NCBI GenBank assembly: GCA_017430235.1
Contig: JAFRNH010000072.1
Span: 1 to 52,539, forward strand
Length of the DNA stretch: 52,539 nucleotides
Origin: Paludibacteraceae bacterium
GTDB lineage: Bacteria > Bacteroidota > Bacteroidia > Bacteroidales > Paludibacteraceae
Direction of reading: 5' to 3'
Below are positions 12-49,895 of the stretch, in pieces. The notes beneath the pieces are model-generated. The model did no database searches, was not told the DNA's origin, and saw only the letters and a program-made list of their open reading frames with translations. Numbering within the stretch: position 1 is the first letter of the stretch; each line of letters opens with the position of its first letter. A program made the position numbers and the translations under genes.

Positions 12-884
12 TTATTTTCCTCTTTCGGCCATTAGTAATTGAATCTCATCTTCATTGATTCCCACCATGGCTTCTCCAAGGTCATCACTTAACTCTGCAA
101 GAATCTTTGGATTGTTATAGTTGGTGACTGCCTTAACAATAGCTTGAGCTCTCTTCTCTGGATTGCCGCTCTTGAAGATACCGCTACCTACGAAGACACC
201 TTCAGCACCAAGTTGCATCATCAGCGCTGCGTCGGCTGGTGTTGCCACACCACCTGCAGCAAAGTTTACTACTGGCAACTTACCGTTGTCGTGTACGTAT
301 TGAACAAGGTCGAAAGGTACGCGTAGTTGCTTTGCTGCCTCGTATAGCTCATCCACACTCATTGAGGTGAGTCGACGGATTTCACTTTGCATCAAACGCA
401 TGTGACGAACTGCTTGCACTACATCACCAGTTCCAGGTTCTCCCTTCGTACGAATCATGGTTGCACCTTCGTTGATTCTGCGCAATGCCTCTCCCAAATC
501 TTTGGCTCCGCAGACAAATGGAACTTGGAACTTGCGTTTGTCTATGTGATAGATATCATCAGCAGGTGATAACACCTCGCTTTCATCAATATAATCAATC
601 TCAATGGCCTCCAATATCTGTGCCTCTGCGAAATGTCCGATTCTACATTTAGCCATAACAGGTATGCTGACTGCCTCTTGGATTCCTTTGATCATCTTTG
701 GGTCACTCATTCTGCTGACACCTCCAGCTCTACGAATATCGGCTGGGATACGTTCTAGTGCCATTACTGCACATGCTCCAGCTGCCTCAGCTATGCGAGC
801 TTGCTCGGGTGTTGTTACATCCATTATTACGCCACCTTTTAACATCTGTGCAAGGTTGCGATTTAGTTCGGTTCTGTCTTCCAT
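12..884 (-). CDS. pdxS: Pyridoxal 5'-phosphate synthase lyase subunit PdxS
   Basis: This 290-residue protein is the synthase half of the DXP-independent vitamin B6 pathway. It joins ribose 5-phosphate, glyceraldehyde 3-phosphate and ammonia into PLP in the cytosol, with ammonia supplied by the glutaminase PdxT. The length and the whole (beta/alpha)8 pattern fit the family. Visible active-site residues are D22 in [11 protein letters not shown]79 in VMAKCRIGH (Schiff-base lysine) and K147 in [10 protein letters not shown] (second lysine); the phosphate-binding [13 protein letters not shown] and GVFVGSGIF loops are intact. The start is the only Met that leaves the conserved N-terminus complete. 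pdxT is not in the window, but the gene ends 11 bases from the left edge, so pdxT could lie just outside. Upstream is a same-strand gene for a ThiD-AraC fusion, and paired direct repeats sit before the promoter, which suggests regulation by that protein. Confidence 0.97.
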
Positions 885-913: not shown

Positions 914-921
914 CAAAGGAA
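914..921 (-). promoter_or_regulatory. Candidate -7 box of the pdxS promoter
   Basis: On the minus strand the bases read TTCCTTTG followed by C, one mismatch from the Bacteroidetes -7 consensus TAnnTTTG. It lies about 30 bases before the pdxS start codon. No TTG -33 element is found at the usual distance. The region where it should be is occupied by a direct repeat, as expected for an activator-dependent promoter. This is inferred from sequence only. Confidence 0.5.
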
Positions 922-931
922 AAAACAAAAA

Positions 932-969
932 CCGAAAAGGTAAAATAATTGTTCCGAAATGGTAAAATA
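932..969. promoter_or_regulatory. Paired 16-bp direct repeats, probable AraC-type operator upstream of pdxS
   Basis: CCGAAAAGGTAAAATA (932-947) recurs as CCGAAATGGTAAAATA (954-969), with 15 of 16 bases identical. The period is 22 bp, close to two helical turns. The pair sits between the end of the ThiD-AraC gene and the pdxS -7 box, and the proximal copy covers the -33 position. AraC/XylS proteins typically bind two direct repeats about 21 bp apart, next to or overlapping the -35 region. The adjacent AraC-domain gene is therefore the obvious candidate binder. The repeat is observed; the binding is inferred. Confidence 0.65.
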
Positions 970-981
970 TTATACTGCTAT

Positions 982-2073
982 TTATAAATTGGATGGGTGT
1001 GATTGACGGTAGGCAGAGGCAGAAACGCCTTCGTGGGCGCGAAAGAATTTGCAGAAGATGACTTGTGATGAGAATCCTAATTTTTCTGCGATCTCTTGGA
1101 TGTTCAGTCTTGATGTGTCGAGTAGGATTTTTGCCTTTTGCATGAGGTAGTCGGCTATGACATCTTTGGGAGATTTGCCCACTAGTTTATTGGTTATTTG
1201 AGAAAGGTAACGAGGGGTGATAGCCAGTTTTTCGGCATAGAAGGTTACGTCGTGAGCTTCGTGATAGTGGTCGGTAATCAAGGAGAGCAGTTGGTTGTAG
1301 AGGTCGGCGGCACGAAGGTTATGGTCTTTGCTTTTGATGGCGTAGACTACTTGACTGTGCATGTATTCATGCGCTTTTGTGATGGCTGTTGGTACGTCGT
1401 CGCCCAAGCCCAATCGGGTGGCGATGGCGGAGGATAGGGCGCCTCCGACGCCATGTCTTTGCCAACCTTCGATGTTGTAGGAGGAGACAAAATGTTTGTG
1501 TTTTTTTCCGTACAAAAGGGCGGTCACTCTTCCTTCTGTGTGCATACCTCCGCGCAGGAAGATCCATTCCACTCCCATGTTGTTTAGTTTTTGGGCGGCA
1601 CGGACCATATCATCGTCTGTTTGGATTTTCTCAGCAAGGATTAGTTCGGCTTCGTTGCATCGAATAATCAGTAGTTGGGTGATTGGCAGGATGTATTGGG
1701 TAAAAGAGTGGATAGCTTCATCGGTCATCATACGATTGCCATGGGAGGAGAGGATGCCGGGGTCGCAGACGATTTTAGGGCATCCAACGATTTCCGTTCG
1801 AAGTTGGCGGATGGTGGGTGCATCGCCCATGATACCTAATTTTATGGCTTTAGGATGAAAATTGTCGATGACAGAGTGCACTTGACCAATCACAATATCA
1901 GATGGCAGGTGTAACAATGTATGCACACCAGATTGGTTTTGAACGGTGACGGATGAGATGGCCGTCACCGCGTATCCACCTAAGTCGGTGATGGTTTTAA
2001 TATCAGCCTGAATCCCCGCTCCGCTAGTATTATCGGAGCCGGTTATGCTGAGTATCGGAATGATTGAATTCAT
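982..2073 (-). CDS. ThiD-like pseudokinase fused to an AraC-type DNA-binding domain
   Basis: The 363-residue protein has two parts. Residues 1 to about 250 are a ribokinase-fold domain of the ThiD type, with ITGSD near the start, SGAGIQADIKT, TVQNQSGV, the CDPG strand and the CNEAE motif. Residues about 260-363 are an AraC/XylS double helix-turn-helix (LAITPRYLSQITNKLVGKSP, then IQEIAEKLGFSSQVIFCKFF). In active ThiD the anion-hole motif reads HGTGC, and in pyridoxal kinases GTGD, where Cys or Asp is catalytic. Here it reads HGVGG, so the catalytic residue is replaced by Gly while the substrate-side motifs remain. I infer a sensor of a pyrimidine or pyridoxine-type vitamer that controls pdxS. 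The start codon overlaps the stop of the upstream CHAP-like gene (ATGA). A weakly active kinase cannot be excluded. Confidence 0.85.
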   Translation of the reverse strand: MNSIIPILSITGSDNTSGAGIQADIKTITDLGGYAVTAISSVTVQNQSGVHTLLHLPSDIVIGQVHSVIDNFHPKAIKLGIMGDAPTIRQLRTEIVGCPKIVCDPGILSSHGNRMMTDEAIHSFTQYILPITQLLIIRCNEAELILAEKIQTDDDMVRAAQKLNNMGVEWIFLRGGMHTEGRVTALLYGKKHKHFVSSYNIEGWQRHGVGGALSSAIATRLGLGDDVPTAITKAHEYMHSQVVYAIKSKDHNLRAADLYNQLLSLITDHYHEAHDVTFYAEKLAITPRYLSQITNKLVGKSPKDVIADYLMQKAKILLDTSRLNIQEIAEKLGFSSQVIFCKFFRAHEGVSASAYRQSHPSNL

Positions 2074-2705
2074 TTTGCAGGTTCACCAATAGGTCTGGCA
2101 ACGCCAAGAATACTTTTGTAATATTTAGGATTTTTATTCAATCTGATGGTTTTGCTGCCTCTCCATTGCTCAAGGAAAGAAAATTTGTATCCTACACCAC
2201 CCTCATAAACAATACCCGCATGTCCATAATTATGATTCTTAGATTCGAATGAAATGATATCACCAGCCTTTAATTCAAGATCAGGAGTCCAGTCTATTTG
2301 CACAAACAACTTAGGATATTCTCTTGCAGCATTAATATATATCATATTGGCATTACCAAGAGCTTTGTTACGGATGTTTTGTTTATACAACATATCGATA
2401 TAATATTTTGCAAGTTCAACATCCTGAGTGCCTGTACCACCACCATACTCCTTTGCAGTGGTTCCCTTTAATTCCTTCAAAGAAGTTTGCATTACATGTT
2501 TAAGATCGTCCGATTGTTCATATCCGGAATTTGATGAACTTGATGAACTTGACGAATTTGATGAACTTGATGGTTTGGTTATTTGTTTAGAATAATCTAA
2601 TTGTGGTTTTTGTTGGTAAGATGGAACGTCATTAGGTCCGGAGATAATGGTATTGAAACTAATGCCCAAAACAAAAATAACGACTAAAAAAAGACACTTC
2701 TTCAT
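2070..2705 (-). CDS. Secreted CHAP-like protein lacking the catalytic cysteine
   Basis: The 211-residue product has a signal peptide (residues 1-23), a Ser-rich linker (about 45-65) and a C-terminal region laid out like a CHAP amidase/endopeptidase (about 85-211). In active CHAP domains a QC(V/W)(D/E)L motif carries the nucleophile. Here the corresponding GTQDVELAKYY has Asp95 where Cys is expected; the codon is GAT. The His of GHAGIVYE (H162) and the Glu of FLEQW (E179) remain. CHAP domains normally cut peptidoglycan; this copy may bind it without cutting, or be decaying. Its stop overlaps the start of the ThiD-AraC gene by four bases, so the two are probably translated from one message, although a functional link is not obvious. 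The CHAP assignment rests on motif order only. Confidence 0.65.
   Translation of the reverse strand: MKKCLFLVVIFVLGISFNTIISGPNDVPSYQQKPQLDYSKQITKPSSSSNSSSSSSSSNSGYEQSDDLKHVMQTSLKELKGTTAKEYGGGTGTQDVELAKYYIDMLYKQNIRNKALGNANMIYINAAREYPKLFVQIDWTPDLELKAGDIISFESKNHNYGHAGIVYEGGVGYKFSFLEQWRGSKTIRLNKNPKYYKSILGVARPIGEPAK
2530..2573. repeat. 9-bp tandem repeat in the Ser linker of the CHAP-like gene
   Basis: Units of GATGAACTT, with variants GACGAATTT and GATGAATTT-like forms, repeat four to five times. They encode the Ser/Asn-Ser linker. Because the unit is nine bases, gain or loss of copies changes linker length without shifting the frame. Confidence 0.75.
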
Positions 2706-25077: not shown

Positions 25078-28000
25078 ATGAGAAGTAAAATTAGAAAGGT
25101 GACCTGGCTGGTCTGGGTGCTTTTAATGCTGCCCGTCGCGGAGTCGATGGCGGCAACCTTCGGAGGTAACGAAGGAGGTGTGAAGTGGTCTTACGACACG
25201 GAGACGCATTGTTTGACCATCTCTCCTCGTGGTACTTCAGGTACAGTTAATAGAAAAGAGTATGCTAATGGCGTGACAGCCGATTATGGAGGCGTGTGGA
25301 ATTATGGTAACAGTGGAAATCCTGCATGGAGAACAACACAGACCCAAGGCCGTACTAGTTACAATTTGCAGAATCTTGTAAGATGTGTAACAGTAGAAGA
25401 GGGTGTAACTAGAATTGGTGCAGCAGCCTTCTATAATTTCCCAAATTTGGAAACGGTGACATTGCCTTCCACTTTGGTCTCAATCGGTGTTGAGGCCTTT
25501 AGAAAGACAAGCATAACACAATTAAATCTACCAGAGAATGTTCAATACATTGGTGATCGTTGGATAACAGATTGTTTCGATTTGGAATTGATCACAGTTG
25601 ATCCAAATAATACATATTTTAAGGTTGACCAGATTTATGGTGCGTTGTTTACGTATGATATGCAGACATTGGTCCGTTTCCCTATTAAGCGTTGTGTAAA
25701 GGAGGTTCGTATTCCTGAGGGCGTAAAGAAAATGGCAACGGATGCTATGTATCAGTTGGACTGCGTGGAGGAGATTATTCTTCCTTCAACATTGGATACT
25801 ATCCAATACGCTGTGTTCGACTGGTGTAATAATTTGAAAACGATTCGTTTTTCTTCAGAGTTCCCTCCTGTATTCTCAGATGGATATAATTTGAATCCTG
25901 GAGATGACTGGAACTATAGTCAATTAACGTCAGAGGGTAAGGCAAATCGTAATAATATGATGATTTATATGCCTTGTATTCCTGATTCAACTTTTGATGA
26001 AAGAACTGGTGAGTATGAAAGAGTGACACAAATTGATGCAAAGAGAATTAGCGGTTGGTTAGCTGATTTCGTTATTGTGGCTACTCCAGTTGAAGAGACT
26101 GTCAGTGGTACTCCTGTTTCTACGGATAGAGGTATTGCTTGGGTAGAAACAAAGAGAACTTGTGAGAATGATACTACCAAGATTATGGCAGAAGCAAGAG
26201 AGGGTAGCCGATTTATTCAGTGGAGACAAGGTTCTAATGGATTTATTACTAAAGATAATCCGTATGTGTTTACTGCTGGTGTGAGTGATACTTTCTATGC
26301 TTATTTTGCGAAAGGTGAGTATGGTGTTACTGCATTGGTAAATGATACATCATTGGGTCTTACTACTGGTTCTGGTATTTATGCAAGTGAAACAGAAGTG
26401 ACGTTGACAGCTACTGCAAAATCATGTGGTAAATTTGTTAGATGGAGTGATGGTGTAACAACTGCAGAAAGAACGCTTACAGTAGGTGTTAAAGATACAA
26501 CAGTTACTGCAATCTTCAATAGACTGACCAACAAGGTTACTGCTTCGGCTAACCAATATGGTTCTGTTTCAATTTATGATTTGAATGGTAATGTCATTAC
26601 TTCTGGTTCTAATGTTGCATGTGGTGATTCGATTGTCTTTGTAGCTACACCTAATGAATATTGTTCATTTGTTAATTGGAATAACGATGGATCATTGATT
26701 AAGGACAAAGACACGATCATTGTGACAGATGATATTACAAGACGTGGAATTTTTGTTCAAGATTCTTTCCTTGTTACTTTCTATAATGTTGGTAACGTAG
26801 AGTTGTGTAAGGATAAATATGTATATGGAGTGACTCCATCTTGCACAGAACCAGAGAACATTGTAACCGCAGAATATACATATACATTTAAAGGATGGAA
26901 TCCTGCAGTTACTCCTGTAAGAGGTGAAGCTACTTACTATGCTGTATATGACACAATAGCTAATCCTTACGACCTCATTACTGTTGTAGAAAATAATCAG
27001 ACACGTAAGAAATACAAGTTTGGTGAGAGTGTTGCTACTCCAGCAAACCCTACAGTAAAAGAGGGATATGTATTCAAAGGATGGTTTGATGCTCCTGCAA
27101 ATGGTGCAGAGGTTTCCTTCCCATTCAATATGCCTGCTAAGGATACTACTGCATACGCAGTATTAGTTCCTGATACATTCATTTTGACATACAAGACATT
27201 CGATTCACTCTCTGTTATCTCAAGAGAGAGAATTGCTTTCGGTGATGATGTGACCATGCCTACTACAGGTCCTGCTCGTGAGGGTTATACTTTCAAAGGA
27301 TGGTCTTCTTCATTTACGACTATGCCTGCTCGCGACACATTTGTAGCTGCTGTCTATACCATCAATTCATACAAGTTGACTTTGAAAGACATCGATGGTG
27401 CTACACTTTCTGAAAAAACAGTAGAGTATGGTACTCAAATTGATGAACCTGATTTTGATAAAGAGGGTTATACTTGTAATGGATGGAAGAATGGCGAATC
27501 TGTCGCTAATTTCCCATTCAATATGCCTGCTCAAAATGTTACGTTGGTAGCTAACTGTAAGATCAATCAGTATACATTGGTATTTAAGTCTGATGATACA
27601 ACGATAGTTGGTAAGATTATTGATGATTATAAGGCTGCAATTACTGCCAATGAGATTCCTACTGCATCCAAGACAGGTTATACATTCCAAGGTTGGGATC
27701 ATGAAGTTCCTTCTATTATGCCAGCTTCAGATGATACCTTCTTTGCACAATGGACAATCAATAAGTATAATGTGAAGTTTAAGAAGAATGACGATGAGGT
27801 TATCTCTTCAAAAGATTATGATTTCGGTTCTAAATTTGATGTTCCTGCAAATCCAGATAGCTTAGGTTATACATTCCTAGAATGGGCTCCTTCTTTAGGA
27901 GACTCAATTGTTCCTGCTAAGGATTTGACATTCATTGCTCAATGGACAATCAACCAACATACGGTTACTTTCAAGAAGAATGACGATGAAATAATCTCTT

Positions 28001-31000
28001 CTAAGGAGTATAACTTTGGTGAGATGTTTGAAACACCTGCAGACCCAGACAGCGTAGGACATACGTTTGAGGGATGGGAGCCAACAGTTACTTCTAATAA
28101 GGTTCCTGATGAGGATTTGACATTCATTGCTCAATGGTCGATCAATTCTTACAAATACATTGTTGTAAAGAACAATGGTGAGAAGAACGATACAACCGTT
28201 TATGACTACAATGCTGAAATTAAGTTGCCTTCAACTCCAGAAAAAGAAGGTTACACATTCAAGGGTTGGTCAGACTCAACAACTGTAATGCCTGCTAAGA
28301 ATGTCGTTACTGAGGCTCAATGGTCAATCAATCAGTATAATGTGACATTCATGATGAATGAGAAAGAGGTTCTTTCTTCTCAAGATTATGATTTCGGTTC
28401 AACATTTGAGGTTCCTGCTGATCCTGATAGTATAGGACATAAATTCTTGGGATGGAATCCAGAGATTGTCTCTACTGTTGTCCCTGCTGAAAGTTTGGTA
28501 TTTGTTGCACAATGGAGTGTTAATTCATATAACTATACCATTGTTAAGAATAATGGAGAAGAAGATGAAACAACATCTTATTTCTATGGTGAGGAGTTTA
28601 CCCTTCCTTCAACACCAAAAAAAGAAGGTTACACATTCATAGGTTGGTCTGATTCAACTTCTGTAATGCCAGATCACGATGTGACTACTGAGGCACAATG
28701 GAAAGTTAATTCTTATACGTTGACATTTAAAGATGAGTTGTCAGTAGATACTATCATCAAACAAACTACGGTTGAATATGGTAATCCAGTTGTTGCTCCT
28801 CAAGATCCTAAGAAGACAGGTTATTCTTTCGTTGCTTGGGTAGATGAAGATGGTTCTAGACTCACTTCTGCTGTTACTATGCCTGCTTCTGATATGACTT
28901 ATAATGCAACTTATAAGATCAATTCATATATCATTAAGTTTGTTGATGGTGATGGTGAAGTAATCGTATCTGACGGACACAAGTACTCTGATACGTTAGA
29001 GTTCGGTAGCAAGATTAAAGTTCCTTCAACAGTTGAGCCTTGGAACGATGAGGAATTCTTGAATTTGTGGAGTCCAGCATTTAATGCAGACACAACGGTT
29101 CCTGCTAGTAATGTAACGTATGTAGCTCAATATAATGGAGAAAAAGTAAGAGTTAGATTCATAGATGGACTTACTTATGAAGTTTTGGATTCTATGGACT
29201 ATAATACTAGTGCAAAGGTTCTTGAATATACAAAAAATGTCCCAGAACATGAAGGATATACGTTCTCAGGTGAATGGGAGTTGGCTAATAATGATCCTGT
29301 TACTTTCTCATACCAGTTACACTCTCAAGATGTTGATTTCTATTCAATATATGATATAAATTACTATAAGTTGACATTCCTTCGTGATGTAAATGATACT
29401 ATTGATGTCTATGATTCAGTATCATATCAAACTAAGTTCTGTGGAAGAGAGGGTTGCATTTACCCTGATACTGCATACAAAAAGGGATATACATTCACAG
29501 GATGGTCTGATTCATTAGATGCAATGCCTGCTCATGATGTAACAATTATGGCTCAGTTCTCTATAAACTCTTACAATGTAACGTTTGTAAATCTTGCTAC
29601 AGGAGAGAGAACGGTTGCATCTTATGAGTATGGTTCAGAAGTTTCTGCTGCTGATTTTTCAGAAGATGAATGTTATGAATATTTGAATTGGAGTGATCAA
29701 ATGGAGAATGGACAAGATGTGAGATTTCCATTCAATATAGATCAGGATACTACTGTATATCTTCTCAATCAACTAAAGCAATATACTATTTCTTTCATAG
29801 ATTATGACGGTGCAGAATTGTATACAGGTAAACAGTATGGCACACAATACTTGGTAAATAGAGAAGGTGATGAGTTGATTCATAATTACAAGAGCGATAA
29901 TGACGATAAGAGTCTTAGTGTTGACTTGATTCCTAGTCGTGAGGGTTATACGTTTATTGGATGGACATCTGAATATAATGATGCAACAACTCCTGCAATG
30001 GCTAATTCGTTGTTGCTTGAGGTGTTAATGCCATGCTACGATATCGAATACAAGGCTAACTATGTAATTGATACATTCAATGTTTACTTGGCAAAAGACT
30101 TTGATGCTGGTAAGCCTATATTCTACGACACAATCTCGTATGTATTCAACGCAGACGTAACTGAGCCTGAGCGTGAGTCTATTACAGGTTATCATTTTAA
30201 TGGATGGTACACATTCCCTTCATACGAGAATGTTGTCTTCCCATTCGTAATGCCAGCTCATGATACTATAATCTGTTTGTATCAATATTCTCCTAATCAA
30301 CATGAGTTGACATTCAAGGATTATAATGATACTACTTTAAGAAGTACTACTGTAGAATATGGTACTCTAGTTGCAACTGCAGATTCAATCTCTTATGCAG
30401 CTCTTGTTCCAGTTCCTTCTCGTGAAGGTTATACATTCACTGGTTGGAATGACGAAGTTCCTGCAACTATGCCAGATGAGGATGTTGTCTTGACTGCTCA
30501 ATACAGCATCAACTCATATCCTATCACATTCTACTTCGACAAGGATAGTATCTTATACACAGATACGATTGAATATCAATCTGCAATTTCTGTTCCTACT
30601 GTAGAGCGCGAAGGTTATGACTTTACTGGTTGGAATGCAACCATCCCTGGTAAGATGCCAGCTGATACGCTTGAGTTCTATGCTCAATTTGAGGCTATCC
30701 CTTACACATTGACTTTCGTAGACTTTGATAAGAGCGAGATCTCTAAGGCAGAATATACATTTGGAGATTATGTATCTTATCCTAAAGAGGAGCCTACTCG
30801 CGTAGGTTATACATTCATTGGATGGAAAGACTCTTTGGAGACTATGCCTGCTAAGAATGTTACTGTAACGGCTCAATACAGAATCAACCAACACACTGTA
30901 ACATTCTACGACGACAACAAAGTCGAAATCGCTTCTATCAGCGGTGATTATGGTAAGGTTGTAACTGAGCCAGATGCACCAGAGCATGAAGGTTATAGCT

Positions 31001-34000
31001 TTATCGGTTGGGATAAGGAAGTTCCTGCAACTATTCCTGATTCAGATGTTGTTTTGAATGCTCAATATGCAATCAACGACTACTATGTATTCTTCTTGGA
31101 TTACAATGGAGACACATTGCAGATTGATACAGTTCCATTTGGCTCAGATAACATTGCTTATCCAGCTGATCCAAAACGTGAGGGATATGACTTCGTCGGT
31201 TATATCGAGAAAGTGCCAACGACAATGCCTGCTCGTAACGTTATTGCTAAGGCACAATATGTTCTCATACAATACAGTGTTAAGTTCTATGATTCTTTCG
31301 ACAACAAGTTGTTGAGCGACTTCCACGAGAATTACGGAACACCTGTAGTAGTTCCTACAGTTCCAAAACATGAAGGTTATACTTTCACTGGATGGTCTGA
31401 TACTGTTCCTGCAACTGTTCCTGCAAAGAATGTAAAACTTACAGCTCAGTATGCAATCAACGAATATGTATTGACATTCAAATTCAAAGATTCAACAATC
31501 CAAAAAGAGAATGTTGAATATGGTGCTGATGTTGTAAGACCTACTTTCGTTCCTGAAGTTGGTTACCATTTCGTTGAATGGTCTGATAAGGACACTATTC
31601 AAAAGATGCCAGCTAAGAACGTAACAATCACTGCTAAGGTAGATGCAGATTTGCATACTATCACATTCAGAGATTATGACAGTACGTTGATCAGACAGGT
31701 AACTTCTAAGTATGGTTCTGTTCTTTCTACGGAAGACATTATGCCATCTCTTAAGGGTTATACATTTGATAAATGGTCTATCGATATCCCTGCAACAATG
31801 CCGGCTTATGATACTGTTGCGTATGCAGAGTATGTTCCAAACCAATATACAATTACGTATAAGGATTATGACCAATCTGTTGTTCGTGTAGATACATTCT
31901 TCTACAAAGATACAATTAAGGCTATCGAAGGTCCAGAGCGTGAAGGTTATACATTCAAAGGTTGGAAAACAATCCCTACTACAATGCCTATCGGTGGTGT
32001 TGAGGTAACTGCTCAATACAAGGTTAACTCTTATATCATCTCATTTAGATCTATGGATAGCACTAAGATTGAGACTAAGAATCGTGAGTTCGGCTCTGAA
32101 TTAGTAGCTCCTGAGATTCCAGAACTTGAAGGATACACTACTTTGGGATGGGATAAAGAGGTTCCTGCAACCGTTCCAGCAAAGAATGATACATTCTATG
32201 CTCAATATCAAATTAACAAGTACAGTTTGTCATTTGAAGATAAGGAAGACGGAACTATTTATCAGAGTGATTCTTTGAATTACAATTCAGTGGTTACTCT
32301 TCCTGCAGATCCTACGAAAGAGGGTTATACTTTCGCTGGATGGGATATGGATGTTCCAACTAACATGCCAGCTTTGAATATTGTAACGTATGCAGTATGG
32401 AAGGCTAATCCTTATGTTCTTTCATTCGTTGATTACAATGATTCAATTCTTGATATCGACACATTGGACTTCGGTGCTAAGGTTGTTTACCCTGCTGATC
32501 CAGTTCGTGAAGGTTACAACTTTGTAGGTTGGGCTGATTCACTTCTCACAATGCCAGCTTACAATGATTCAATCATCGCTCAATATCAAGTTAAGAAGTA
32601 TGAGGTTATCTTCAAAGATGGCGACAGCATCATCTTCAAGGATTCTTTAGCATACGGTGATACAATCATCGCTCCTGCAGATCCAGAGAAGAAGGGTTAC
32701 CAATTTGATGGATGGAATCCAGAGGTTCCTGTTACGGTTCCTGCTTATGATATAATCCTTACTCCTACATGGACGAAGGCTGAGTTCGTAATCACATTCT
32801 TGGATTACGATAGCACAGTGGTTGCTCAAGACACATTGATGTTCAACGCTAACATTGTTAAGCCTAAGGTTACTCGTGAGGGTTACACATTCACTGGATG
32901 GAATCCAGAGGTTCCTAATAAGATGCCAGGTGCTGATTTGACAACAATTGCTGAATATACGATCAACAAACATGAGGTTATCTTTGTTGACGGCGATGAC
33001 AATATCATCTACAAAGATTCTTTGTACTTCGGTGATACAATCGTAGTGCCAGCTGATCCTACTAAAGAGGGATATGACTTCGCTGGTTGGGATCCAGAGG
33101 TTCCTGTTACGGTTCCTGACGAAGACCTTTTGATTACTCCTGTATTCACTAAGGCTGAGTTCATTATCACATTCTTGGATTTCGATAGCACTGAGATATT
33201 CAAAGATACTTTGTCATACGATTCTAAGATCGCAGTTATTAAAGATCCTACACGTGAAGGTTACACATTCTCTGGATGGAATCCTGTGGTTCCTAACAAG
33301 ATGCCAGGTGAAAACTTCACTACAATCGCTGAGTATACTATCAACTCTCATATTGTTACTCTTCTTGATGATGATGACAATATCTTGTTCAGAGATACTT
33401 TCGTATACGGTGATTCAATCAAAGTTGACACAGTTCCTTCTAAGGATGGATTCACATTTGATGGATGGAACCCTGTAATCCCTGAGTTGGCTCCAGATAG
33501 CGATATTATCGCTCATCCAACTTGGGTTGAAGATGCTTTGGTATTGGATTCTGTTGATGCGTTCGCTGACAACTTCTGCGCTGGTGATGTAGCTCGCGTT
33601 TACTACAGCGTTTCAAGCGGTAAACCAACAAGCTTCACAATCACATTTGACGATGCTACTACAGATGCTGGATTCAAGACTCAAACAGGTACAATTGGTG
33701 AAGATGGCGAAATCTTCATGACAATCCCTGAGGGTGTTGAAGAAGGTGTTTACACTGCTACTTTGCAATTGACAGGTGTGGATAGCACTAGCAACGCGGT
33801 TGACTTCAAGTTCGCTACTAACCTCTCATCTAGATACATTAGTAGAATGTGGGATGACGTAGTTGTATGCGATAACTCAGATGAAGAATTCGAATCTTAC
33901 CAATGGTATAAGAATGGTGAGAAGATCAAGGGCGCAACAAAACAATTCTACTGCGAATTGGGTGGCTTAGACGGATTCTATTCTGTCATTGTTAAGACGA

Positions 34001-34299
34001 AAGATGGTAAGAAGAAACATATCTGCGGTATCCAATGCGATTATGTTCTCCCTCCATTCTCTCTTATCGCTTACCCTAACCCAGCTAAGGCTAATGAACA
34101 ATTCACTCTAGAAGTGAAGGGCTTGACTGAGGAAGAGTTGAAAGATGCTAAGATCTCTGTATTCAGCGTTTCTGGTAGAGTCGCTCTCACAGATTCTGAT
34201 GTTGAATATAAGAATTTAGTTTCTTTGCCTCACGGCGAATACATCGCTTTGGTAACATTTGAAGGCAAGAGTGCATTCTGTAAGATTTTAGTTCGTTAA
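25078..34299 (+). CDS. Giant T9SS protein: BspA-like LRRs plus about 34 Listeria-Bacteroides repeats
   Basis: The 3073-residue protein starts with a signal peptide (TWLVWVLLMLPVAESMA). Next is a BspA-like leucine-rich region (about 55-300; LPSTLVSIGVEAF, LPENVQYIGD, LPSTLDTIQYAVF), then two divergent beta modules. Residues about 562-2815 carry some 34 repeats of about 66 residues of the InlB B-repeat / Listeria-Bacteroides type, each with a GYTFxGW core and a following MPA.....AQY strand. A spacer domain and an Ig-like YQWYKNGEKIKGA segment come next, and residues 2994-3073 are a T9SS type A sorting domain (IAYPNPAKANEQF, HGEYIALVTFEG). It is probably a long rod-like adhesin. The 3' part uses codons such as GGT, CGT, TTC and AAC, which suggests high expression. 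The OmpA-like gene follows after 30 bases with no terminator between. Confidence 0.92.
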   Translation: MRSKIRKVTWLVWVLLMLPVAESMAATFGGNEGGVKWSYDTETHCLTISPRGTSGTVNRKEYANGVTADYGGVWNYGNSGNPAWRTTQTQGRTSYNLQNLVRCVTVEEGVTRIGAAAFYNFPNLETVTLPSTLVSIGVEAFRKTSITQLNLPENVQYIGDRWITDCFDLELITVDPNNTYFKVDQIYGALFTYDMQTLVRFPIKRCVKEVRIPEGVKKMATDAMYQLDCVEEIILPSTLDTIQYAVFDWCNNLKTIRFSSEFPPVFSDGYNLNPGDDWNYSQLTSEGKANRNNMMIYMPCIPDSTFDERTGEYERVTQIDAKRISGWLADFVIVATPVEETVSGTPVSTDRGIAWVETKRTCENDTTKIMAEAREGSRFIQWRQGSNGFITKDNPYVFTAGVSDTFYAYFAKGEYGVTALVNDTSLGLTTGSGIYASETEVTLTATAKSCGKFVRWSDGVTTAERTLTVGVKDTTVTAIFNRLTNKVTASANQYGSVSIYDLNGNVITSGSNVACGDSIVFVATPNEYCSFVNWNNDGSLIKDKDTIIVTDDITRRGIFVQDSFLVTFYNVGNVELCKDKYVYGVTPSCTEPENIVTAEYTYTFKGWNPAVTPVRGEATYYAVYDTIANPYDLITVVENNQTRKKYKFGESVATPANPTVKEGYVFKGWFDAPANGAEVSFPFNMPAKDTTAYAVLVPDTFILTYKTFDSLSVISRERIAFGDDVTMPTTGPAREGYTFKGWSSSFTTMPARDTFVAAVYTINSYKLTLKDIDGATLSEKTVEYGTQIDEPDFDKEGYTCNGWKNGESVANFPFNMPAQNVTLVANCKINQYTLVFKSDDTTIVGKIIDDYKAAITANEIPTASKTGYTFQGWDHEVPSIMPASDDTFFAQWTINKYNVKFKKNDDEVISSKDYDFGSKFDVPANPDSLGYTFLEWAPSLGDSIVPAKDLTFIAQWTINQHTVTFKKNDDEIISSKEYNFGEMFETPADPDSVGHTFEGWEPTVTSNKVPDEDLTFIAQWSINSYKYIVVKNNGEKNDTTVYDYNAEIKLPSTPEKEGYTFKGWSDSTTVMPAKNVVTEAQWSINQYNVTFMMNEKEVLSSQDYDFGSTFEVPADPDSIGHKFLGWNPEIVSTVVPAESLVFVAQWSVNSYNYTIVKNNGEEDETTSYFYGEEFTLPSTPKKEGYTFIGWSDSTSVMPDHDVTTEAQWKVNSYTLTFKDELSVDTIIKQTTVEYGNPVVAPQDPKKTGYSFVAWVDEDGSRLTSAVTMPASDMTYNATYKINSYIIKFVDGDGEVIVSDGHKYSDTLEFGSKIKVPSTVEPWNDEEFLNLWSPAFNADTTVPASNVTYVAQYNGEKVRVRFIDGLTYEVLDSMDYNTSAKVLEYTKNVPEHEGYTFSGEWELANNDPVTFSYQLHSQDVDFYSIYDINYYKLTFLRDVNDTIDVYDSVSYQTKFCGREGCIYPDTAYKKGYTFTGWSDSLDAMPAHDVTIMAQFSINSYNVTFVNLATGERTVASYEYGSEVSAADFSEDECYEYLNWSDQMENGQDVRFPFNIDQDTTVYLLNQLKQYTISFIDYDGAELYTGKQYGTQYLVNREGDELIHNYKSDNDDKSLSVDLIPSREGYTFIGWTSEYNDATTPAMANSLLLEVLMPCYDIEYKANYVIDTFNVYLAKDFDAGKPIFYDTISYVFNADVTEPERESITGYHFNGWYTFPSYENVVFPFVMPAHDTIICLYQYSPNQHELTFKDYNDTTLRSTTVEYGTLVATADSISYAALVPVPSREGYTFTGWNDEVPATMPDEDVVLTAQYSINSYPITFYFDKDSILYTDTIEYQSAISVPTVEREGYDFTGWNATIPGKMPADTLEFYAQFEAIPYTLTFVDFDKSEISKAEYTFGDYVSYPKEEPTRVGYTFIGWKDSLETMPAKNVTVTAQYRINQHTVTFYDDNKVEIASISGDYGKVVTEPDAPEHEGYSFIGWDKEVPATIPDSDVVLNAQYAINDYYVFFLDYNGDTLQIDTVPFGSDNIAYPADPKREGYDFVGYIEKVPTTMPARNVIAKAQYVLIQYSVKFYDSFDNKLLSDFHENYGTPVVVPTVPKHEGYTFTGWSDTVPATVPAKNVKLTAQYAINEYVLTFKFKDSTIQKENVEYGADVVRPTFVPEVGYHFVEWSDKDTIQKMPAKNVTITAKVDADLHTITFRDYDSTLIRQVTSKYGSVLSTEDIMPSLKGYTFDKWSIDIPATMPAYDTVAYAEYVPNQYTITYKDYDQSVVRVDTFFYKDTIKAIEGPEREGYTFKGWKTIPTTMPIGGVEVTAQYKVNSYIISFRSMDSTKIETKNREFGSELVAPEIPELEGYTTLGWDKEVPATVPAKNDTFYAQYQINKYSLSFEDKEDGTIYQSDSLNYNSVVTLPADPTKEGYTFAGWDMDVPTNMPALNIVTYAVWKANPYVLSFVDYNDSILDIDTLDFGAKVVYPADPVREGYNFVGWADSLLTMPAYNDSIIAQYQVKKYEVIFKDGDSIIFKDSLAYGDTIIAPADPEKKGYQFDGWNPEVPVTVPAYDIILTPTWTKAEFVITFLDYDSTVVAQDTLMFNANIVKPKVTREGYTFTGWNPEVPNKMPGADLTTIAEYTINKHEVIFVDGDDNIIYKDSLYFGDTIVVPADPTKEGYDFAGWDPEVPVTVPDEDLLITPVFTKAEFIITFLDFDSTEIFKDTLSYDSKIAVIKDPTREGYTFSGWNPVVPNKMPGENFTTIAEYTINSHIVTLLDDDDNILFRDTFVYGDSIKVDTVPSKDGFTFDGWNPVIPELAPDSDIIAHPTWVEDALVLDSVDAFADNFCAGDVARVYYSVSSGKPTSFTITFDDATTDAGFKTQTGTIGEDGEIFMTIPEGVEEGVYTATLQLTGVDSTSNAVDFKFATNLSSRYISRMWDDVVVCDNSDEEFESYQWYKNGEKIKGATKQFYCELGGLDGFYSVIVKTKDGKKKHICGIQCDYVLPPFSLIAYPNPAKANEQFTLEVKGLTEEELKDAKISVFSVSGRVALTDSDVEYKNLVSLPHGEYIALVTFEGKSAFCKILVR
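32594..33540. repeat. Higher-order repeat (about 372-378 bp) at the 3' end of the repeat region
   Basis: A two-module unit, EVIFxDGD...VPVTVP followed by AEFxITFLDxDST...VPNKMPG, recurs. GAGGTTATCTT starts at 32602 and 32974, and a more diverged unit begins near 33352. This points to recent duplication of pairs of 66-residue modules, while modules further upstream are more diverged. Confidence 0.8.
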
Positions 34300-48181: not shown

Positions 48182-49216
48182 TTAATTTAAGGAGTTCCAT
48201 CCTTGTGCTTTCAAATCTATTTCATCGCCTTGACGGGTGATGAGACGGCAACCAAGTGCTTTGTCGGTGGTGTGTCCGATGACTTTGATTCCCGGAATCT
48301 TTTGAACAATCTCGTTCGCAGACAATGGAACGGTGAAGAGCAGTTCATAATCTTCGCCTCCGTTGAGAGCAGCGGTTGTTAAGTTCATATTAAATTCCTC
48401 TGCCATCACAGCCGTTTGATAGTCGATAGGAATACGATCTTCATACACGCGACAACCTAATCCGCTTTGATTGCAGATGTGTAGCAATTCGGAGGATAAT
48501 CCGTCGGAGATATCCATCATTGCGGTTGGTAGGATATTGTTTTTCGCCAACTCCTCGATGATATCTTTTCTTGCTTCTGGTTTTAGTTGGCGTTCGATGA
48601 TGTATTCTTTCCCTGCGAAATCAGGTTGGATTGATTCGTCACCTTTGAAGATGTTCTTCTCGCGTTCCAAGAGTAGAAGACCCATGTAGGCTGCACCAAG
48701 GTCGCCCGACACACAGAAGAGGTCGGTGTTTTGAGCGCTGTTCCTTTGAACGACTTTTCCTTTTTCTCCTTCACCAATGCAGGTGATGCTGATGGTCAGT
48801 CCTGTCAGTGAGGCAGAGGTGTCGCCACCCACCAAATCCACTCCGTATTTTTCGCAGGCAAGTCGGATGCCAGCATATATCTCGTCAAGATCCTCTATGG
48901 AGAAACGTTTGGAGATACCTAAAGAGACCGTGATTTGTTTGGGTTGCCCGTTCATAGCGTATATGTCAGAGAAATTGACAATGGCCGATTTGTAACCCAA
49001 ATGCATGAGTGGACAATAGGTTAAATCGAAATGAACCCCCTCTAAAAGCAAGTCGGTTGTTACCAGCACTTGTTTGTCTTTGTAGTCGAGGATGGCAGCA
49101 TCATCGCCAACACCCTTTAGTGTGGATTCGTTTTTTAACGTGAAGGATTCGGTTAAATGTTTAATCAGTCCGAATTCACCCAATGTAGATATCTCGGTTC
49201 TCTCTTTATTTCCCAT
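48182..49216 (-). CDS. thiL: Thiamine-monophosphate kinase
   Basis: This 344-residue cytosolic enzyme phosphorylates thiamine monophosphate to thiamine pyrophosphate. The motifs are in order: GVGDDAA near residue 35, TTDLLLEGVHFDL, the VGGDTSAS segment and DISDGLSSELLHI, with NGGEDYELLFTV near the C-terminus. The start at 49216 (MGNKERTE) matches the family N-terminus. This ATG lies inside the end of the upstream gene, an 11-base overlap in another frame, so translation is coupled. An upstream in-frame Met at 49300 would read through the neighbour and is rejected. Confidence 0.95.
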   Translation of the reverse strand: MGNKERTEISTLGEFGLIKHLTESFTLKNESTLKGVGDDAAILDYKDKQVLVTTDLLLEGVHFDLTYCPLMHLGYKSAIVNFSDIYAMNGQPKQITVSLGISKRFSIEDLDEIYAGIRLACEKYGVDLVGGDTSASLTGLTISITCIGEGEKGKVVQRNSAQNTDLFCVSGDLGAAYMGLLLLEREKNIFKGDESIQPDFAGKEYIIERQLKPEARKDIIEELAKNNILPTAMMDISDGLSSELLHICNQSGLGCRVYEDRIPIDYQTAVMAEEFNMNLTTAALNGGEDYELLFTVPLSANEIVQKIPGIKVIGHTTDKALGCRLITRQGDEIDLKAQGWNSLN

Positions 49217-49895
49217 TTTGATCTTTTTTGTTTTCAAGATTTTTCGTGGTGATTTCTCCTCTGATGAAATCGCCATTTTTCTGAATGAAAGGAAGAGCAT
49301 TTCCTTTCCAGTATTTCTTATATTTTCTTTGTCTCAATTGATCTAGAAATTCAGGGGTGTTGTTAATTACCCAGATGGTGTCGCTTTTCGTGAATTCGTA
49401 GTGAATGAAGTCAATTTCAAATTTCTTTACGAATTCATCGACGGTAAGGCTATCATGCTTTAATGAGTCGACATCAGCAAAGTCGGCCAACGTGATTTGT
49501 GGCATTTGCTTAGGTTGTTGAAGCGAATTGGGTTTTACCATCTTCATGATGCCATCACATTGTGCGCTGCACATCCACCAGCTTAAGCCGAATATGGTTT
49601 GCTTCTCTATGGTCCATCTCTTTAACGCAAAGTAACCTTGGTCTGAAGTTTTAATCTTCAAGTAATCATTTTCTTTGTATTCCAATATGCAGGCAGTACT
49701 ACCATTTTTCATTTTCAAAGTGGTCTCTTTTTTATCTCTGTACCCATTGATGAGTGCGCTCCTTGTTTCTTGGTTCAATTGCAATTGACTTTTTAATCCT
49801 GTGACGAAATAGTTCTCCAAAGTCTGAGCCTGACAATGAAGTGATGCCGCAAGAGCCAATCCGAAGAAACTTATAAGGAAAAGTATGTGTTTCAT
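49206..49895 (-). CDS. Secreted hypothetical protein (DUF3256-like)
   Basis: The 229-residue protein has a signal peptide (1-23, ending CQA). A beta-rich region without a clear catalytic motif follows (NGSTACILEYKENDYLKIKT, GLSWWMCSAQCDG, DTIWVINNTPEFL). The pattern is weakly like the Bacteroidetes family DUF3256; I am not sure. It overlaps thiL and heads the cluster thiL, porE-like and xseB from a promoter at 49915-49922. An envelope role next to porE is possible but only positional. Confidence 0.65.
   Translation of the reverse strand: MKHILFLISFFGLALAASLHCQAQTLENYFVTGLKSQLQLNQETRSALINGYRDKKETTLKMKNGSTACILEYKENDYLKIKTSDQGYFALKRWTIEKQTIFGLSWWMCSAQCDGIMKMVKPNSLQQPKQMPQITLADFADVDSLKHDSLTVDEFVKKFEIDFIHYEFTKSDTIWVINNTPEFLDQLRQRKYKKYWKGNALPFIQKNGDFIRGEITTKNLENKKDQNGK

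Follow-up and report, generated by a model that had tools for sequence, protein, structure and literature searches.

The window, a stretch of 52,539 nucleotides, is a whole contig of the Bacteroidales genome G000 (2.71 Mb in 111 contigs, 88% complete). At one of its ends, on the same strand, lie pdxS, which codes for the lyase subunit of PLP synthase, and, 97 nt upstream of it, a gene in which a ThiD-type pseudokinase is fused to an AraC-type helix-turn-helix (HTH) domain (Table 1). The contig starts at the end of pdxS; in relatives, pdxT comes after pdxS. A first-pass annotation, made from the letters of the sequence, had described a ThiD-type domain joined to an AraC DNA-binding domain beside pdxS, and the reading frame, the Pfam matches and the PdxS equivalog models bear this out. 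The HTH_18 match of the fusion, at 67.3 bits against a Pfam cut-off of 33.6, places it among AraC/XylS domains. Homology of the sensor to ThiD spans residues 7-246, and the score with the ThiD equivalog model TIGR00097 (181.6 bits) stays below the cut-off of 204.95, outside ThiD proper. G000 additionally encodes an ordinary ThiD with an HGTGC motif and a second kinase of the same Pfam family, whose motif is HGTGD and which by eye resembles pyridoxal kinases.

Table 1 Features of the fusion locus, in positions of the window.
Feature	Position	Strand	Basis and remarks
pdxS, PLP synthase lyase subunit	12..884	-	exceeds the cut-off of two PdxS equivalog models
TTCCTTTG, presumed Bacteroidetes-type -7 promoter element of pdxS	914..921	-	34 nt from the start of the downstream half-site
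Candidate tandem operator upstream of pdxS	932..975	-	direct repeat 954-969 / 932-947; GGAACA at 950-955
Fusion gene, ThiD-type pseudokinase and AraC-type HTH	982..2073	-	363 aa, ATG start; ORF and Pfam matches
AraC-type HTH_18 domain	1003..1239	-	Pfam, residues 279-357, E 1.5e-18
ThiD-like (Phos_pyr_kin) domain	1327..2034	-	Pfam, residues 14-249, E 5.9e-55
HGVGG replacing HGTGC	1441..1455	-	last Gly (1441-1443) at the catalytic Cys position
Arg138 replacing Asn of the NXXE motif	1660..1662	-	Lys/Arg in 47/47 fusions, Asn in 68/68 other ThiDs

Three further genes of the window were noted. A 211-aa gene (2070-2705, minus strand), by eye one for a secreted amidase-like protein, overlaps the start of the fusion by 4 nt; a gene of similar length precedes the fusion in locus L006 and a different one in L007. 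A 3073-aa ORF (25078-34299, plus strand) contains many similar repeats, which we take to resemble Listeria-Bacteroides cell-surface repeats. A gene that by eye is ThiL-like (thiamin-monophosphate kinase; 48182-49300, minus strand) lies about 46 kb from the fusion, and no link between them was seen.

Among 200 sampled genomes of the same family, 34 carry the fusion, as confirmed by reading frames; pdxS is adjacent or nearby in 20 of them and absent from 14. Thirteen more fusions were collected from named records (L055-L063) and, at the level of the order, from 295 sampled genomes (G217, G489, G253, G309), with duplicates counted once (L078 is the G253 contig; L065, L069 and L071 apparently correspond to G117, G048 and G133). 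Among the named carriers are Prevotella sp. UBA1705, Bacteroidales bacterium KA00344 and Hoylesella shahii. The fusions form a single well-supported clade, one side of a branch that separates them from 68 other ThiDs (bootstrap/SH-aLRT 100/100), in a tree whose root is not determined. They were seen in Bacteroidales only, in searches that scored up to 10 candidates per genome in the family sample and up to six and up to five in two wider searches, limits that together with the wider thresholds would miss weak cases: many fusions of the short form would not reach cut-offs of 1e-45 and 1e-55, and G309 itself matched at 6.5e-51. In the second wider search, none among the matches listed outside the own genome covered the HTH part.

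In the family sample pdxS occurs in 25 genomes and is of two types. The close type (20 genomes) is 85-100% identical to the PdxS of the window, the distant type (5 genomes) 67-69%. All 20 close-type genes have a fusion within about 2.1 kb, next to pdxS, across pdxT or divergent from it, G103 being the single case at about 2.1 kb; the five distant-type genes have no fusion in the 12-14 kb of sequence surrounding them, nor was any found by the genome-wide search of the sample. The 13 fusions from outside the family sample all adjoin pdxS. Separately, the tblastn match of pdxS in L060, like that of pdxT in L062, falls in two pieces, possibly through a frameshift or an insertion. PdxS and PdxJ are mutually exclusive, as judged by comparing the lists by eye: PdxJ is missing in 25/25 genomes with pdxS and present in 165 of the 175 family genomes without it. 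Twelve of the 14 fusion genomes that lack pdxS have pdxJ; the other two, G036 (98% complete) and G117 (78% complete), keep the fusion with neither gene.

Just upstream of the pdxS promoter lies a putative tandem operator with a period of 20-22 nt. In the window it is a direct repeat, TATTTTACCATTTCGG followed by TATTTTACCTTTTCGG, identical at 15 of 16 positions and 22 nt apart; it was matched by none of 2000 shuffles at spacings of 20-23 and, with any spacing from 16 to 60 allowed, by 4 of 1000. Regulators of the AraC/XylS family bind close to the promoter, at two direct half-sites separated by about two turns of the helix. From the Bacteroidetes consensus we take TTCCTTTG to be the -7 element. 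The 34-nt spacing between it and the downstream half-site recurs in 25 of 42 sites, and a spacing of 33-34 nt to a -7-like box is found in 32/42 (30-39 allowed), counts in which the automatic choice of half-site was left unchanged where it looks wrong (L035, L150, L060, L036, G019, G048, G110 and G133, the last four having further repeats). At this spacing the half-site overlaps the -33 region, a layout used by AraC-type activators that touch RNA polymerase.

A motif search de novo over 25 promoters from relatives reached a log-likelihood of 322, against 120 ± 5 (maximum 138) in 40 shuffled sets, statistics that are inflated by the relatedness of the promoters; L058, L041 and L063 have low-scoring sites (6.5-9.7). 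With at most 3 mismatches, a 29-nt pattern drawn from such pdxS sites matched once per genome in nine genomes of the window's genus, at pdxS in 9/9, and its reversed control matched once across the nine genomes together. For the held-out locus L168, 9/1000 shuffles were as good; for L171, 129/1000 with the pdxS matrix and 5/1000 with a wider one; for L169, 335/1000 within 300 nt and 1/1000 over 480 nt, a stretch widened after the site had been seen by eye. None of the five distant-type pdxS promoters has the operator.

The site also occurs at the fusion gene, depending on the arrangement. Where fusion, pdxS and pdxT follow one another as an operon it precedes the fusion, clearly in 2/6 loci and weakly in 4/6 (12-17 of 300 shuffles as good). 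In 12 loci with pdxS first or separately promoted, no site at ≤5/300 shuffles stands before the fusion itself. Without pdxS in the genome, the fusion promoter has a site at that level in 8/13 cases and not in 5/13; in G036 (locus L036) the operator stands before the fusion itself.

We consider it likely, judging from gene linkage and promoter comparisons, that the fusion regulates the transcription of vitamin B6 (PLP) biosynthesis genes as a one-component system. Its ligand, its binding to DNA and the sign of its action are all inferred here, and it is probably an activator antagonised by PLP. A repressor with PLP as its co-repressor is possible though clearly less likely: it too would act at an operator that overlaps the -33 region, but the near-constant distance to the -7 box suits a contact-dependent activator, and the PdxR proteins described in the accessible part of PMC5320631 activate pdxST, with PLP as anti-activator.

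The sensor half is an altered kinase. The motifs SGAGIQADIKT, TVQNQSGV, CNEAE and HGVGG are all present as the first-pass annotation had quoted them, and its reading of HGVGG as the loss of a catalytic residue stands: the motif aligns to HGTGC of ThiD, so that Gly occupies the position of the catalytic Cys in the window protein. Among 47 fusions (near-copies included; 44 distinct kinase sequences) this position is Gly in 30, Asn in 12, Ala in 3, Ser in 2 and never Cys; in the alignment Cys is present in all 68 other ThiDs (67 from records and the own ThiD of G000). The absence of Cys is conserved throughout, the Gly in 30/47. CNEAE had been taken for a substrate-side motif, wrongly: it aligns to TPNxPEAE, that is, to the metal/phosphate motif NXXE, with Arg in place of the Asn. 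The fusions have Lys (28) or Arg (19) there. According to the text available from PMC5931981, NXXE is close to magnesium and to the phosphate donor, and the GXGD loop has its glycines at the donor phosphates; in adenosine kinase, a change of the NXXE Glu to Lys abolished activity (PMC3118340, available portion).

The pocket, which had been called intact, is so in part. Gly12, Asp14, Gly20, Asp24 and Gly80 are invariant in 47/47 fusions. The position of Gln45, which we presume to touch the ligand ring, has Gln in 37/47 and is otherwise variable, and the phosphate side carries the Lys or Arg. Twelve of the 47 are of a short form, in which some 50-60 residues are missing from the C-terminal half of the kinase. 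In all 10 pairs compared, including the short form and genomes without pdxS, the dN/dS of the kinase part is 0.04-0.14, a ratio that is rough in the 3/10 pairs with dS >1; the kinase part is under purifying selection. Because both the Cys and the Asn are replaced in 47/47 members of a strongly constrained domain, the site looks like one that is kept in altered form and not like a decaying enzyme. This bears on the idea of a pure scaffold, in which the kinase domain would be a ligand-free dimerisation module and regulation would run through protein level (autoregulation) or partners. The shortened members and the variation at some pocket positions agree with it, but a Lys or Arg at the NXXE Asn throughout looks like a maintained site and selection is strong even in the short form; we regard a scaffold as improbable.

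The same operator is predicted at pdxJ. Scanning the 200 nt upstream of pdxJ with a matrix trained on pdxS promoters only gave scores of 6.3 to 16.6 in 12/12 fusion genomes, which represent three genera only (g4, g5, g20) and include four near-copy promoters, against -17.7 to -1.0 in 36/36 fusion-free genomes, hand-picked from 153 with pdxJ and no fusion seen. Only two of these controls, G099 and G125, share a genus with such fusion carriers, and G120 belongs to the genus of the window. In G095 the tandem is plain to the eye, GGAACAATTGTTTTCCGGTTCGGAACA. Looking simply for pairs of GGAACA words at a distance of 20-22 nt, a cruder measure, gave overlapping ranges (10-12/12 matches in fusion genomes versus 6-11/12 in controls). 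With the wider matrix, in the first eight pdxJ cases, 9, 6 and 3 of 300 shuffles were as good in three and none in five. The expectation that the gene stays beside pdxS holds for 20 of the 34 carriers in the family sample; the other 14 are unlinked, and 12 of these have the putative operator at pdxJ instead.

Some pdxJ regions have features of their own. In G019, G048, G110 and G133 (L196, L200, L201, L202) the upstream region holds not two but at least 3 GGAACA-type repeats, about 21-22 nt apart. The control G125 (locus L206; 77% complete, no fusion seen) shows one operator-like half upstream of pdxJ, which breaks off at masked bases; the genome may have lost its fusion, or the fusion may be missing from the assembly. 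In genus g5, the four genomes that have a long fusion and no pdxS (G004, G106, G095, G081) have two PdxJ matches each.

Other targets were sought more broadly. Strict patterns derived from fusion promoters matched that promoter in 4/4 and 7/7 genomes and gave one extra match, with 3 mismatches, in G081. They missed the pdxJ sites, which came from scanning pdxJ promoters directly; the strict patterns are thus not sensitive and may miss other targets too. A looser half-site search of 8 genomes returned 67 matches versus 17 in the reversed control. Seven were fusion promoters; of the 60 others, 20 were inspected, 19 lying inside ORFs and one between genes, 271 nt from the next ORF. As far as this non-exhaustive search went, the operator is located at pdxS, pdxJ and the fusion itself. 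A search for RNA families, which covered 7 loci with pdxS and the locus of the genome's own ThiD, found nothing but one tRNA, and so no TPP riboswitch at those loci.

On this comparison of promoters, the regulator appears to be tied to B6 as the product rather than to any one gene set, and the presence of the operator at both pdxS and pdxJ argues for a B6 vitamer as the signal and against HMP. The first-pass annotation had proposed B6 or HMP; B6 is favoured, and HMP is weakened because B6 is what pdxST and pdxJ both make. A sensor on the thiamin side, whose ThiD-like pocket would still bind HMP or HMP-P and couple B6 synthesis to thiamin supply, would suit the descent from ThiD and the five conserved positions retained in every member. 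We nonetheless think it quite improbable, given the common product of the two pathways, the sites located so far in a non-exhaustive search and the lack of a TPP riboswitch at the loci searched. Least plausible is that the protein has remained a kinase of a B6 vitamer and regulates on the side, as a trigger enzyme: the long form does have a nearly complete ThiD domain, but the catalytic Cys and the NXXE Asn are gone in all 47 members, and G000 already encodes an ordinary ThiD as well as another kinase of this family.

We return to the B6-responsive activator. A ThiD kinase domain would have lost its catalytic residues, had its metal/phosphate motif rebuilt with a basic residue and been taken over as the sensor by a regulator of AraC type, whose HTH would bind the tandem GGAACA-type operator with half-sites 20-22 nt apart, the downstream half overlapping the -33 region of the pdxST promoter or, in species with the other pathway, the pdxJ promoter. 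The kinase pocket may hold PLP (or PNP), whose phosphate would lie close to Lys/Arg138 and to the glycine-rich loop. Transcription would be activated when B6 is low and the regulator silenced by PLP, a negative feedback as reported for PdxR. In its broadest form, to which we give moderate confidence, a vitamin kinase would thus have become a dedicated PLP receptor, with catalysis lost and a magnesium-binding Asn turned into a phosphate-gripping Lys or Arg; joined to the AraC domain, it would constitute a Bacteroidales family of B6 regulators tied to the product, serving either pdxST or the unrelated pdxJ through the same operator. The original suggestion of a B6-synthesis regulator of AraC type, built on an altered ThiD-like domain and distinct from PdxR, fits the loss of Cys in 47/47, the linkage to pdxS and the putative operators at pdxS and pdxJ.

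If true, this would give a group of bacteria associated with gut and rumen (habitats taken from several record titles) its B6 regulator. It would also be a clear case of a pseudokinase serving as a vitamin receptor, and of one regulator with one operator for two non-homologous routes to a single cofactor. PLP binding and a defined operator are predicted, both open to ordinary assays. In the open-licence literature, no ThiD-AraC fusion or B6 regulator of this type was found among the matches listed; a Roseburia paper that surfaced in the search is, in the part available, unrelated in content. The accessible portions of the surveys of B6 genes and regulators PMC5320631, PMC9997740 and PMC6593275 make no mention of AraC.

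Several known systems are close to the fusion. PdxR, of the MocR subfamily, is likewise a one-component regulator adjoining pdxST with an enzyme-derived sensor. As far as described in the available part of PMC5320631, it activates pdxST with PLP as anti-activator and its operators are direct repeats two or three helical turns apart; direct repeats are shared with the fusion, for which PLP control is predicted. The two differ in both domains, since PdxR combines a GntR domain with an aminotransferase-like domain and the fusion has a Pfam match to neither a GntR winged HTH nor an aminotransferase-like domain, and in that the putative operator of the fusion stands also at pdxJ. By analogy, the fusion would resemble PdxR by function, not by descent. 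ThiD, the bifunctional HMP/HMP-P kinase, is homologous to the sensor domain, from which it differs by its score above the family cut-off, by the catalytic Cys and NXXE Asn that the fusion has lost and by the absence of an attached HTH. With AraC/XylS regulators the fusion shares the C-terminal HTH_18 and a tandem site by the promoter, in its case a predicted one; their usual sensor is of the cupin type or another kind, whereas that of the fusion is a pseudokinase. Metabolic enzymes turned into sensors of their own pathway are known in ThiR, NrtR, BirA and others, with other enzymes and other vitamins. By its predicted domains, the fusion is an AraC-family regulator with a former ThiD as its sensor.
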